Origin: Anaerolineaceae bacterium
GTDB lineage: Bacteria > Chloroflexota > Anaerolineae > Aggregatilineales > Phototrophicaceae
Assembly (NCBI GenBank): GCA_007693385.1
Contig: REDR01000069.1
Span: 1 to 64,000 of the forward strand
Direction: 5' to 3'
DNA length: 64,000 nt
Part shown: positions 27,993 through 59,258 of the stretch, in pieces
Numbering within the stretch: position 1 is the stretch's first letter
Layout: the number at the start of each line of letters is the position of its first letter
Notes under the pieces: generated by a model
The model's input: the letters and a program-made list of their open reading frames with translations, nothing else
What the model was told of the DNA's origin: nothing
Database searches by the model: none
Made by a program: the position numbers and the translations under genes

Positions 27993-28133
27993 CGCGCTGA
28001 CCGCACGCGACATAATCGAGACGCCCGCCACTGTGCGGGCGTTTTGCTGTGTCTGCATGTGTCTCTCATCTGCTGATGAGGTTATCGTGCGATAATGATT
28101 GGCGATTCAGTCACAATTGAGGACACCAAGCGC

Positions 28134-29105
28134 ATGATTGAATGTGAAAATCTGACCAAGTATTTCGGCGACTTCTTAGCGGTGGATAACATCAACTTGC
28201 ACGTCGCCGCCGGTGAGGTGCTGGCCTTGCTCGGGCCGAACGGCGCGGGCAAGACGACCAGCGTCCGCATGATGACTTCCATCTTACGGCCATCGTCGGG
28301 CACCGCCCGCATCGCCGGTTATGATGTGGTGGAACATCCCGAAGAAGTCCGCGCCCGCGTCGGCGTGCTGACCGAACAACACGGCCTGTACGAGCGCATG
28401 AAAGGGCTGGAATATCTGGATTTCTTCGGGCGCATCTATCATCTGAACCAGCGCGAACGCGAAGAACGGGCACTTGACCTGATGGCGCGGTTTGATCTGA
28501 CCTTCGCGCTGGATAAGCGGCTGGGCGAATACTCCAAAGGCATGAAGCAAAAGCTGGCGCTGGTGCGTGCCATGCTCCACGATCCGGCGGTGTTGCTGTT
28601 AGATGAGCCGACATCGGCGATGGACCCGTTCAGCGCCAAGCTGGTACGCGATGCCATCATCGAACTACAGCGCGACGAACGCACCTTCTTGATTACCACG
28701 CACAACCTTAACGAAGCGCAGATGCTAGCGGATCGTATCGCCATCATCCGGCACGGCCACATCGTCGCGGCTGGCACATTCGATGAACTGGTGCGACGCT
28801 TCGCCGGTCAGCCGGTGATGGAAATGCGCGTCAACGGTAACGCCGCGCTCAACGGCTTCGCCGACGACATCGCCGACACCGTGACCGTCATCGAGCAGAG
28901 CGCCGACTGGTTGCGCTACCGCACCGATACCCCGCACCAGACCAACCCGCAGATTCTACGGCGGGCGCTGGGCGTCGGGCTGGAAGTCGTCGCGCTATCG
29001 CCGGTCACGCGCACGCTAGAAGACATTTATCTGCAAGTGGTCAAAGAGGATGAACAGGGAGAACGGATCAATGACGATCAACGCGCGTCCATCCCCGCCG
29101 ATTAG
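28134..29105 (+). CDS. ABC transporter ATP-binding protein (ABC-2/Nat type)
   Basis: Cytosolic ATPase of an exporter. It has Walker A GPNGAGKTTSVRM, the signature EYSKGMKQKLALVRAM, Walker B VLLLDEPTSAMDP and the switch His in ITTHNLNEA. The ABC-2 subtype is suggested by the SKGMKQKL signature and by the downstream permease, which overlaps it by 35 nt. ATG 28134 is preferred because GAGGA lies about 12 nt upstream; in-frame ATG 28095 has no ribosome-binding site. The substrate is unknown. Confidence 0.88.
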   Translation: MIECENLTKYFGDFLAVDNINLHVAAGEVLALLGPNGAGKTTSVRMMTSILRPSSGTARIAGYDVVEHPEEVRARVGVLTEQHGLYERMKGLEYLDFFGRIYHLNQREREERALDLMARFDLTFALDKRLGEYSKGMKQKLALVRAMLHDPAVLLLDEPTSAMDPFSAKLVRDAIIELQRDERTFLITTHNLNEAQMLADRIAIIRHGHIVAAGTFDELVRRFAGQPVMEMRVNGNAALNGFADDIADTVTVIEQSADWLRYRTDTPHQTNPQILRRALGVGLEVVALSPVTRTLEDIYLQVVKEDEQGERINDDQRASIPAD

Positions 29106-30636
29106 GGCGGCACGCCGCCAGCCATCCGGCACGCTGGAACGCTGGCGTTACACATTAAGCAACGCGCTCATCATCACGCGCCGCGAAGTGCGCGACAGCC
29201 TGCGCGACTGGCGCATCATCGCGCCGATCATCGTGCTGACGTTCATCTTTCCGTTGTTGTCGCAATTCGTCGCGGTGCAGTTCCGCGAATATCTGGGCGG
29301 CTTCGGCGGTAATGCCATGCTCATCGGCGAGCGCTCCACGCCGTTTCTGCTGATGGTGGTCGGCTTCTTCCCCATCTCGATCTCACTGGTGATCGCGCTG
29401 GAGACGTTCGTCGGCGAAAAAGAACGGCGCAGTCTGGAGCCATTGCTCAGCACGCCGCTTTCCACCACCGAGCTATACATCGGCAAGACGCTAGCCGCCA
29501 TGATCCCACCATTGGGCACTAGCTTGATTGCGATGGGCTTCTACATGCTCATCACGCTGACCGGCTCGCTGGAATGGCGTCCGCAACCGATGCTGATCTT
29601 TCAAATCTTCCTGCTGACCATCGTGCAGGCGCTGGTGATGGTCACGGGGGCGGTGGTGGTCAGTAGCCAGACCACCAGCACCCGCGCCGCTAATCTGCTG
29701 GCGAGCTTCATCATCCTCCCGATGGCGATGGTGGTCATCATCGAAAGCGTGATTATGTTCTCCGCGCCGGACGCCGAATCCGCACGCGGCATCACCGCGC
29801 TATGGGGGATCATCGTCGGTATGGCGATTGTCGCGGTGCTGTTCTTGCGGCTGGGCAGTAGCATCTTCAACCGCGAAGAGTTGCTATCCAGCACCGTCGA
29901 TCAGCTTGATCTGCGCGGCACGTTCGCCAAGATCGGGCGTTACGTGGTGGCCGTCGATGATGACGGCACGCCCGCCCGTAACCTGATCGACTGGTATCGC
30001 CGCGCCATTCCCGACGGCCTGCGCCGCATCCGCGCCAGTATCGCGTTTTCGCTGTTCGTGCTGACTCTGGCGATGATCGTCGGCGCGATTGCGTCCGGGC
30101 AAGAGCCGTATAACATCACCTTGCCGCCACAGGATGAGCTGGTCGCCGAGCGCCCCGACGATCAATCGACGCGCCTTGTGTATAACTCCGTCGGTTCGAG
30201 TCCGGCGGGCGAATTAATCAGCTTCGATTTCATCATCCGCCAGAACCTGACGGTCATCGCGCTGGTGTTCGTCGCCGGTATGTTTAGCTTCGGCGTGGTG
30301 GCGCTGAGCATCGTAATTTTGACGTTCGGCCTGCTCGGATACGTAACCGGACTGGTGTTGAGTAACGGCTACAGCCCGATGTTCCTTGTGCTGGGAATCC
30401 TGCCGCATGGCGTGATCGAACTGCCGGTCATCTTGATCGCCACCGGTACCGCCGTAGCGATGGGGGCGTGCATCATGCGCCCGCCAGCCGGAAAGACGGT
30501 CGGCCATACATGGCTGGTACAGCTAGGCGTCAGCCTGCGCTTGATTATCGGCGTCATCGTGCCCGGCCTCATCATCGCCGCGCTGATCGAAGCCACCATC
30601 ACGCCGTATCTGCTGTTTAATTATCTGGCCGGTTGA
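29071..30636 (+). CDS. ABC-2 type permease fused to a SpoIIM-like membrane domain
   Basis: Membrane partner of the upstream ATPase. The N-terminal part has the ABC-2 exporter layout, with the conserved cytosolic motif VGEKERRSLEPLLSTPLSTTELYIGK and six or so membrane segments. After about residue 320 a second membrane block begins that resembles the SpoIIM/DUF95 family: FVAGMFSFGVVAL, LVLSNGYSPMFLVLGILPHGVIELPVILIATG. This NG ... PHGxxELP pattern is characteristic of that family. ATG 29071 follows GGGAG by 10 nt; ATG 29050 is less well placed. 521 residues. The fusion suggests that the SpoIIM part acts with the exporter. The substrate is unknown. Confidence 0.85.
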   Translation: MTINARPSPPIRAARRQPSGTLERWRYTLSNALIITRREVRDSLRDWRIIAPIIVLTFIFPLLSQFVAVQFREYLGGFGGNAMLIGERSTPFLLMVVGFFPISISLVIALETFVGEKERRSLEPLLSTPLSTTELYIGKTLAAMIPPLGTSLIAMGFYMLITLTGSLEWRPQPMLIFQIFLLTIVQALVMVTGAVVVSSQTTSTRAANLLASFIILPMAMVVIIESVIMFSAPDAESARGITALWGIIVGMAIVAVLFLRLGSSIFNREELLSSTVDQLDLRGTFAKIGRYVVAVDDDGTPARNLIDWYRRAIPDGLRRIRASIAFSLFVLTLAMIVGAIASGQEPYNITLPPQDELVAERPDDQSTRLVYNSVGSSPAGELISFDFIIRQNLTVIALVFVAGMFSFGVVALSIVILTFGLLGYVTGLVLSNGYSPMFLVLGILPHGVIELPVILIATGTAVAMGACIMRPPAGKTVGHTWLVQLGVSLRLIIGVIVPGLIIAALIEATITPYLLFNYLAG

Positions 30637-30644
30637 TATAATGC

Positions 30645-30673
30645 TTGACAGTATCATAAAAAGCGGCTATCTT
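30645..30673 (+). promoter_or_regulatory. Promoter of the aspartate kinase leader
   Basis: A consensus -35 TTGACA (30645-30650) and a -10 TATCTT (30668-30673) are spaced by 17 nt. Transcription would start near 30680, 31 nt before the leader peptide ATG. Confidence 0.75.
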
Positions 30674-30710
30674 TTCACCAGAACAAACAAACACGGAGCG
30701 CATAATCCCG

Positions 30711-30782
30711 ATGGCGTTTAGCATCCGCATCACGACAATCACTATGATGGCGATGACTACCCGGCCACACCATAGACGGTGA
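30711..30782 (+). CDS. Thr/Ile/Met-rich leader peptide of aspartate kinase
   Basis: A 23-codon reading frame begins at ATG 30711, with GGAG (30695-30698) 12 nt upstream, and ends at TGA 30780-30782. Residues 7-17 read ITTITMMAMTT, so ten of eleven consecutive codons encode Ile, Thr or Met, end products of the aspartate pathway. The layout of promoter, control-codon leader, terminator and aspartate kinase gene matches ribosome-mediated attenuation as in the E. coli thr operon, whose leader is Thr/Ile rich. CCACAC at 30765-30770, just past the control codons, is complementary to GTGTGG (30826-30831) in the 5' arm of the terminator and could act as antiterminator. Expression of the peptide is inferred. 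Confidence 0.8.
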   Translation: MAFSIRITTITMMAMTTRPHHRR

Positions 30783-30822
30783 GGGGATTTTCGCGTAGCA
30801 AGTCATCGGCAAGGACTTCAGG

Positions 30823-30851
30823 AGCGTGTGGAAACCCCACACGCTTTTTTT
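30823..30851 (+). terminator. Attenuator terminator before aspartate kinase
   Basis: GCGTGTGG (30824-30831) pairs with CCACACGC (30837-30844) over a 5-nt loop and is followed by seven T residues (30845-30851). It lies between the leader peptide and the kinase start at 30885, so some transcripts must read through it. Confidence 0.88.
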
Positions 30852-30884
30852 GTTGGCTTTTAGACACAGGAGCAAGGCGTACTC

Positions 30885-32294
30885 ATGAGCATCATCACCA
30901 TGAAATTCGGCGGGACATCCGTCGGCAGTCCAGAGGCGATCAGTAATCTCGTTCAGATCGTGCGCGAGGCACGCGACGCGGGCGATCAAGTGGTGGTCAT
31001 CGTCTCCGCGATGGCCGGAACCACCGACGCGCTACTGCGCTCAATCACGTTTGCGCGGGAGGGCAATCGCTGGAGCTACCGCGAGCTATCCGACAAGTTG
31101 CGCGACAAGCACGAAGACGCCATCAATTTTTTGATGGACGCTTCGCCGGAGCGCGAATCCATTATCAACGAAATCCGCCGCTTGCTAGACCAGCATCACG
31201 ACCTATGCGACGCCATCGCCATCTTAGGCGACGCCACCCCCCGCGCCATCGACCATGCGGTGACGTTCGGCGAGCGCATGAGTAGCGCGATGATTTCCGC
31301 CGTCCTCAGCGCACACGGCGTCCCCGCGCAAGCCTTCGACGCCGGTCAACTGCTGGTCACCGATGATGTCCACCAGAACGCCACGCCGCAATGGGACGCC
31401 ACCCGCGCCAACATCACCGAGCGCCTCATCCCGCAGATCGAGAAGGGCGTCGTGCCGGTCATCACCGGCTTCATCGGCGCGACGCCGGACGGCGTATACA
31501 CCACGCTAGGGCGCGGCGGCAGTGACTACAGCGCCGCCATCTTCGCCGCATACGTCAACAGCGATCAATTCATCGTGTGGACGGATGTCGATGGCGTCAT
31601 GACCACCGACCCGCGCATCGACAAACGCGCCCGCGTCCTGTCGAAAGTGTCTTATCAAGAGGTCGGCGAAATGGCGTTTTACGGCGCGAAAGTCCTGCAC
31701 CCCAAGACGGTACAGCCCATCGTCAATCGTGGCATCCCGATATGGGTACGCAACACATTCAACCCGACGCATCCCGGCACGCTCATCAGCCATGACTCCG
31801 ACGACACCGGCACGGTCATCAAAGCGGTGACGGCGGTGCGGCAGGTCAGCTTATTGACCGTTAGCGGCGCGGGGATGCTCGGCGTGCCCGGCATCGCGGG
31901 GCGCTCTTTTCTGGCGACGGCGGGCGCGGGCGCTAACATCCTGATGATCTCGCAGGCGTCGTCCGAGCAGAGCTTTTGCTTCAGCGTGCTACAACATCAA
32001 GCGCCGCAGGTCAAAGCGGCGGTGGAGGCCGAACTCGCCGAAGAAATCCAGCAGAACAACGTGGACGGCGTACACATCCGCGATGATGTCAGCATCGTGA
32101 CCGTCATCGGCGCGGGGATGCGTGGCATCCCGGGCGTGGCCGGGCGCGTATTCACCCGCATGGGCGAGCAGGGCGCTAACGTGTTAGCCATCGCGCAGGG
32201 ATCATCAGAGTGCAGTATTTCGTTTGTCGTTGAGGAGTCCATCGTGCGTGACGCGGTGATTGGCCTGCACGATCTGGCGTTAGAGGCGGTTTAA
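30885..32294 (+). CDS. lysC: Aspartate kinase
   Basis: Phosphorylates L-aspartate, the first step to Lys, Met, Thr and Ile. The kinase domain has MKFGGTSVGS, TFGERMSSAMI, GFIGATPDGVYTTLGRGGSDYSA and the nucleotide-binding WTDVDGVMTTDPR. Two C-terminal ACT domains follow (around SLLTVSGAGMLGVPGIAGRSF and SIVTVIGAGMRGIPGVAGRVF), which bind feedback inhibitors. At 469 residues it is monofunctional, without a homoserine dehydrogenase part. The leader contains Thr, Ile and Met codons but no Lys codons, which argues for control by the homoserine branch; lysC or thrA-type naming is therefore open. Confidence 0.93.
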   Translation: MSIITMKFGGTSVGSPEAISNLVQIVREARDAGDQVVVIVSAMAGTTDALLRSITFAREGNRWSYRELSDKLRDKHEDAINFLMDASPERESIINEIRRLLDQHHDLCDAIAILGDATPRAIDHAVTFGERMSSAMISAVLSAHGVPAQAFDAGQLLVTDDVHQNATPQWDATRANITERLIPQIEKGVVPVITGFIGATPDGVYTTLGRGGSDYSAAIFAAYVNSDQFIVWTDVDGVMTTDPRIDKRARVLSKVSYQEVGEMAFYGAKVLHPKTVQPIVNRGIPIWVRNTFNPTHPGTLISHDSDDTGTVIKAVTAVRQVSLLTVSGAGMLGVPGIAGRSFLATAGAGANILMISQASSEQSFCFSVLQHQAPQVKAAVEAELAEEIQQNNVDGVHIRDDVSIVTVIGAGMRGIPGVAGRVFTRMGEQGANVLAIAQGSSECSISFVVEESIVRDAVIGLHDLALEAV

Positions 32295-58870: not shown

Positions 58871-59232
58871 GTCAGGCGGGCAAGGTGATCGCGCCGGTGC
58901 GTTATGTGCCGGTGAGGAAAGTCCGCACTCCACAGGGCACGGTGCTAGCTAACAGCTAGGCGGAGCGATCCGACGGCAAGTGCAACAGAGAGCAGATTGC
59001 GTCCGGCAACGTCCGGGCGTGAGGGTGAAACGGTGGTGTAAGAGACCACCAGCGTCGGTGGTGACATCGGCGGCTAGGCAAACCCCACCGGGAGCAAGGC
59101 CAAGCAGATGCGATGGTGTCGCCCGCACCGCATCGGGTAGGCCGCTTGAGGCGTCAGGTGACTGGCGTCCTAGATAGATGATCGCCACCCGCCGCGCGCG
59201 GGTACAGAATGCGGCTTATGCGCCCGCCTGAC
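58871..59232 (+). ncRNA. rnpB: RNase P RNA (bacterial type A)
   Basis: Catalytic RNA that removes 5' leaders from tRNA precursors. The terminal helix P1 is seen as GTCAGGCGGGC (58871-58881) pairing with GCCCGCCTGAC (59222-59232). Conserved core elements follow in order: GAGGAAAGTCCGCACTCCACAGGG near 58914, GAGGGTGAAACGGTGGTGTAAGAGACCACCAG near 59020, AGATAGATGATCGCC near 59173 and ACAGAATGCGGCTTATG near 59204. The length of about 362 nt fits type A. Confidence 0.96.
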
Positions 59233-59258
59233 CGTGTAATTGTGGCCTGTTGGTCGCG

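Follow-up and report, generated by a model that had tools for sequence, protein, structure and literature searches.

In Escherichia coli, the thrL attenuator of thrABC uses Thr and Ile codons, and a Thr leader family is represented in Rfam. The leader described here resembles thrL in combining codons for aspartate-branch end products with an intrinsic terminator and a predicted, mutually exclusive antiterminator ahead of aspartate kinase, the first regulated enzyme. It differs from thrL in that its codons are of the Thr and Met type while Ile stays at the background level, in that segment 2 of the leader RNA takes the loop and 3' arm of the terminator instead of chiefly its 5' arm, and in that a lone monofunctional kinase lies downstream in place of an operon.

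Leader-peptide attenuators have also been described for trp and ilvB in Actinobacteria (PMC1262725) and, in Firmicutes, for his (PMC2965389) and for leu in Staphylococcus aureus (PMC5794164); PMC2965389 stated in 2010 that, until its own Firmicutes case, Proteobacteria and Actinobacteria were the only groups with known leader peptides. They share their mechanism with the present leader and also lie outside Proteobacteria, in other phyla and on other amino acids. The window, by which we mean the whole stretch of 64,000 nucleotides that was analysed, belongs to Chloroflexota, so a first-pass annotation made from the letters alone was right to place its proposed attenuator outside Proteobacteria; among named records the nearest is the MAG Chloroflexi bacterium J038, with a kinase 68% identical. 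Leader-peptide attenuation in Chloroflexota had no report in the literature searched, a coverage that leaves out most subscription journals, and priority for the phylum is not certain. The mechanism itself is classical, and what is new is the phylum, the pairing of Thr with Met, and the capture of loop and 3' arm by segment 2.

Layout of the aspartate kinase leader

The following features make up the locus, all on the plus strand of the window.

30645 to 30673 (+): sigma-70-type promoter, TTGACA (30645-30650), 17-nt spacer, TATCTT (30668-30673)
30711 to 30782 (+): leader peptide ORF of 23 codons, MAFSIRITTITMMAMTTRPHHRR, with its TGA at 30780
30729 to 30761 (+): control codons ITTITMMAMTT (residues 7-17), conserved for Thr and Met but not for Ile
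30760 to 30771 (+): segment 1, the 5' strand of the protector, CCC (30760-30762) and CACC (30768-30771), fold of -8.5 kcal/mol
30778 to 30793 (+): segment 2, GGTGAGGGGATTTTCG, which includes the stop codon; predicted antiterminator partner of the terminator loop and 3' arm
30821 to 30851 (+): intrinsic terminator, stem 30821-30831/30837-30847, loop 30832-30836, T run 30845-30851
30885 to 32294 (+): aspartate kinase, 469 aa, with AA_kinase and ACT domains

The promoter, the 23-codon ORF with its residues 7-17, the terminator with seven T residues and the 33-nt gap had all been named by the first-pass annotation and were confirmed, as was the identity of the downstream gene from its two domains. 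The promoter matches the consensus at 10 of 12 positions (shuffles yield 0.4 such sites per region), and the terminator has an 8-bp GC-rich core and a stability of -17.6 kcal/mol, its T run ending 33 nt before the kinase ATG at 30885. No clear Shine-Dalgarno sequence precedes the ORF in the window leader. In segment 1, CCC pairs with GGG at 30784-30786 and CACC with GGTG at 30778-30781. Against Rfam, the window leader gave no match to the SAM-I riboswitch aptamer (RF00162), to the stem I or T-box bulge of the T-box (RF00230), or, up to E = 10, to any amino-acid leader family, that of Thr included.

The kinase gene is apparently monocistronic, the next gene lying on the other strand. In NCBIfam its product scores best against a model for monofunctional aspartate kinases and one for the kinase part of ThrA, neither score reaching the cut-off of its model, and the lysine-sensitive kinase model ranks behind these two. 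A second aspartate kinase in the same genome is 34% identical to that of the window, and no comparable leader was seen upstream of it. Directly 5' of the attenuator promoter lies an ABC-2 type permease with a SpoIIM-like C-terminal region (29050-30636, plus strand), adjoined by its ATPase partner (28095-29105). The window also holds a bacterial RNase P class A RNA (58873-59234, plus strand, 290.9 bits).

Conservation and the amino acids probably read

Of 98 genomes in the window's family, 90 have an orthologue of the kinase, and for 89 of these the upstream DNA was read. A promoter, a short Thr/Met-rich ORF and a terminator precede the kinase in 85 of the 89, L042 being a weaker case, and the remaining four (L021, L031, L033 and L106, from G002 and the whole of one three-member genus) lack both the codon run and the terminator. 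A terminator kept without the codon run, the pattern that the first-pass annotation had set against its own proposal, occurs in 0 of the 89 genomes. The promoter is nearly invariant, in the form TTGAC-17-TAnnnT, with TTGAC in 82 of 84 orthologous leaders and the 17-nt spacer in 78 of 82. Three genomes of a neighbouring family likewise carry the leader (L038, L041 and L049), and candidate related ORFs, Thr/Met or Thr-rich, are found before the kinase in a few other families (L110, L111, L113 and L143).

After the start codon, 20.0% of the in-frame residues in 86 distinct leaders are Thr and 13.4% are Met; the other two frames give 2.5-2.7% and 0.2-0.8%. Each of the four Thr codons occurs in these leaders. 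The relatives' ORFs were chosen for Thr/Met content, and the shuffle control used the identical rule; under it, shuffled upstream regions scored as high as the real ones 0.12% of the time, and among 3000 dinucleotide shuffles made from the window leader none gave a Thr/Met ORF equal to that of the window. Enrichment over shuffled leaders was 3.3-fold for Thr, 8.8-fold for Met, 1.5-fold for Gly, 1.04-fold for Ile and 0.8-fold for Lys. Of the Thr/Ile/Met attenuator first proposed, Thr and Met therefore stand, the Met codons being a real and conserved part of the predicted sensor, while Ile as a third input is ruled out by the composition of the leaders. As had also been noted, the leader has no Lys codon, and Lys is not enriched in the relatives. 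Judged from these sequences, the conserved message is Thr and Met, and the Ile codons are particular to the window leader.

The Met codons could instead be incidental, serving for example as codon spacing or alternative starts in an attenuator that reads Thr only. This is unlikely, in our estimation, given that Met is more strongly enriched than Thr and that at least two internal Met codons occur in 85 of the 86 leaders. The other sensors found before the same gene bear on both sides of the question. SAM-I riboswitches precede the orthologous kinase in sister families (L036, L039, L040, L132, L134 and L136), which speaks against reading Thr alone, whereas T-boxes precede it in L122, L145 and L147 (below the Rfam gathering score, E of 1e-16 to 1e-18), with an apparent ACC (Thr) specifier as read from the alignment to the Rfam consensus. 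These Thr T-boxes, together with the Thr-rich leader without internal Met at class level in L110, would favour it. A two-input sensor has its own complication, as sensing Met through stalls in elongation must contend with the need for Met at initiation.

Since SAM-I riboswitches and T-boxes with an apparent Thr specifier sit on the same gene, Met/SAM and Thr are kinase signals elsewhere in the class, and the two would be combined in the peptide leader. Like it, these leaders control the kinase by premature termination in response to Met/SAM or, apparently, Thr; they sense by an aptamer or by uncharged tRNA, whereas the window type would sense by a translated peptide.

Pairings and the predicted switch

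In the window, segment 2 folds with the terminator loop and 3' arm at -17.8 kcal/mol as a duplex and -21.2 kcal/mol as a hairpin, although a bulge and a mismatch interrupt the helix, and many relatives have a stronger one. Fixed-column counting was dropped for this antiterminator in favour of swap tests and per-column pair types, since the register moves with loop length; the swap tests leave part of the effects of relatedness in place. Across 84 sequences, natural partners of segment 2 and the terminator top paired far better than swapped ones (z of -11.6, 0 of 10000 swaps as good), and with one sequence for each of the 48 distinct tops z was still -8.9. Both sides of the helix vary together, with G-C, A-U, U-A and C-G pairs exchanging. 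The protector, the pairing of segment 1 with segment 2, behaved similarly (z of -9.6, 0 of 10000 swaps as good), and the terminator stem covaries in 30 relatives, with 18 double-change cells against 3.4 in shuffles. The elements, their conservation, the covariation of the three stems, the codon enrichment and the spacing are all computed quantities.

The first-pass annotation had proposed a different antiterminator, between CCACAC (30765-30770) and GTGTGG (30826-30831), and suggested testing whether the leader codons and both stems covary in relatives. Both sequences are in place, the Thr and Met codons are kept and the terminator stem covaries, but neither the Ile codons nor this pairing held up: 6089 of 10000 swaps were as good, so that natural leaders match their own 5' arm no better than a stranger's, and the predicted antiterminator instead joins segment 2 to the terminator loop and 3' arm. 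CCACACC is instead part of the protector hairpin. A possible longer pairing, between the ORF end and the base of the terminator 5' arm, was weak: it shows in one genus-level group (81 of 10000) but not in the others (6730 of 10000).

The last Thr or Met codon lies a median of 17 nt from the core of segment 2 (10-90% range 14-22), and 22 nt separate the start of that core from the end of the stop codon, which in the window sits within segment 2. With these spacings, a ribosome on any control codon would free segment 2 and one at the stop would cover it, a tight spacing that fits the ribosome footprint, as expected.

We folded the RNA left outside the ribosome cover, using a partial transcript in which the terminator is half made. 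In the stalled state, the antiterminator averaged 0.65 and the terminator 0.14 (0.78 and 0.00 in the window). The terminator rose to 0.84 with the ribosome at the stop (0.98 in the window) and to 0.62 with the ribosome absent (0.93 in the window). In full-length RNA the terminator is the equilibrium winner in most cases even when the ribosome is stalled (0.91 in the window); the switch must therefore be kinetic, as in known attenuators, and the choice between structures appears to be made during transcription. This folding upholds the first-pass direction of control, readthrough on stalling and termination on completion, but not its premise that a stalled ribosome leaves CCACAC free: CCACACC lies in segment 1, which a stalled ribosome has to cover.

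From the sequence we infer a transcript start, ribosome stalling and a response to Thr and Met, as follows. Transcription would begin near 30680 and a ribosome would load on the leader ORF. When Thr or Met is short, it would stall on the control codons (30729-30761) and cover segment 1 (30760-30771); the freed segment 2 (30778-30793) would pair with the emerging terminator loop and 3' arm, no terminator would form and the kinase would be transcribed. With both amino acids plentiful, the ribosome would reach the TGA (30780) and cover segment 2, and the terminator would form, stopping transcription 33 nt before the gene. In the absence of a ribosome, segments 1 and 2 would pair, and termination would follow as well. 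A stall caused by scarcity of Thr or Met thus most likely keeps the kinase gene on in this model.

As in a leader-peptide attenuator, an ORF with a run of codons for pathway products lies downstream of a promoter, and an intrinsic terminator lies between leader and gene; computationally, an antiterminator that excludes the terminator and a protector between segments 1 and 2 that gives ribosome-free termination were found too. From the comparative data, the presence of a putative peptide attenuator before aspartate kinase is close to certain. That it is ribosome mediated and would set kinase transcription according to the availability of charged tRNA-Thr and tRNA-Met we put at roughly 90%.

At the leader 3' ends of relatives (e.g., L013, L015, L017 and L075), a peptide end G-x-F-x-L-[P/L/S]-stop recurs. 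Its terminal Pro is spelled 7 times CCA, 6 times CCG, 5 times CCC and twice CCT, and this use of all four codons hints at selection on the residue, which perhaps slows ribosome release. Arrest of the nascent peptide by such an end could take the place of slow decoding of control codons, and the frequent ends FRLP, FRLL and FGLL, along with the hint of amino-acid selection, would suit it. We regard such arrest as quite improbable: many leaders are without such an end, including that of the window, which ends in HHRR, the universal feature is the codon run, and the Thr/Met content fits the end products of the pathway. A fixed promoter-proximal terminator that merely damps expression, next to an unrelated small protein, has hardly any standing, as terminator and codon run are lost together, the antiterminator and protector stems covary, and the spacing is tight.

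Peptide leaders elsewhere in the phylum

A covariance model of the element and a search by gene family were applied to the window's own genome. There the model found only the kinase site at E <= 0.01, and in 301 genomes across the phylum it gave few matches beyond the family, as is to be expected when a model leans heavily on sequence. Its weaker matches in relatives included Phe/Tyr-rich leaders upstream of genes for AroH-type chorismate mutase, prephenate dehydratase and DAHP synthase, the last two named from translations only and chorismate mutase also by Pfam. In the window's own genome (L232, contig C5, upstream of 31060-31407 on the minus strand), the Phe/Tyr-rich leader MMLASGHNNTFAYYYFYFTDDIEDGRQMCLGAIGR precedes an AroH-type chorismate mutase, with a TTGACA promoter of its own and a terminator to which the end of the ORF pairs at -27.6 kcal/mol, and many relatives have similar leaders there (e.g., L215, L218, L224, L229 and L239). 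In L205 (about positions 80-290), a Phe-rich leader, MILLMKHFTFSFTRFTTLLGRRK, and a terminator immediately precede a gene whose translation reads as prephenate dehydratase. In L202 (around 1340-1610), from a genome that shares the window's phylum but not its class, a Tyr/Phe-rich leader, MARLDSTCAYYFYRFFWYYAAVSTRGRVVTPPD, and a terminator precede a gene reading as DAHP synthase. No comparable leader was found upstream of homoserine dehydrogenase, acetolactate synthase or anthranilate synthase in relatives, with starts assigned automatically. Given the Phe/Tyr leaders, that of the window's own genome included, peptide attenuation is not a one-off in this lineage.

We consider it likely that leader-peptide attenuation is widespread in Chloroflexota, with Thr/Met leaders on aspartate kinase and Phe/Tyr leaders on chorismate mutase, prephenate dehydratase and DAHP synthase, that the kinase leader is a two-input sensor in which internal AUG codons report Met shortage, and that peptide leader, SAM-I riboswitch and Thr T-box have been exchanged before the kinase across the class. 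If true, this would extend classical attenuation to a phylum without a report in the papers searched. It would also offer a rare test case of whether AUG codons within a leader can report methionine shortage, given the need for Met at initiation. With three interchangeable sensors on one gene in a single class, replacement among regulatory RNAs would become directly accessible to study.
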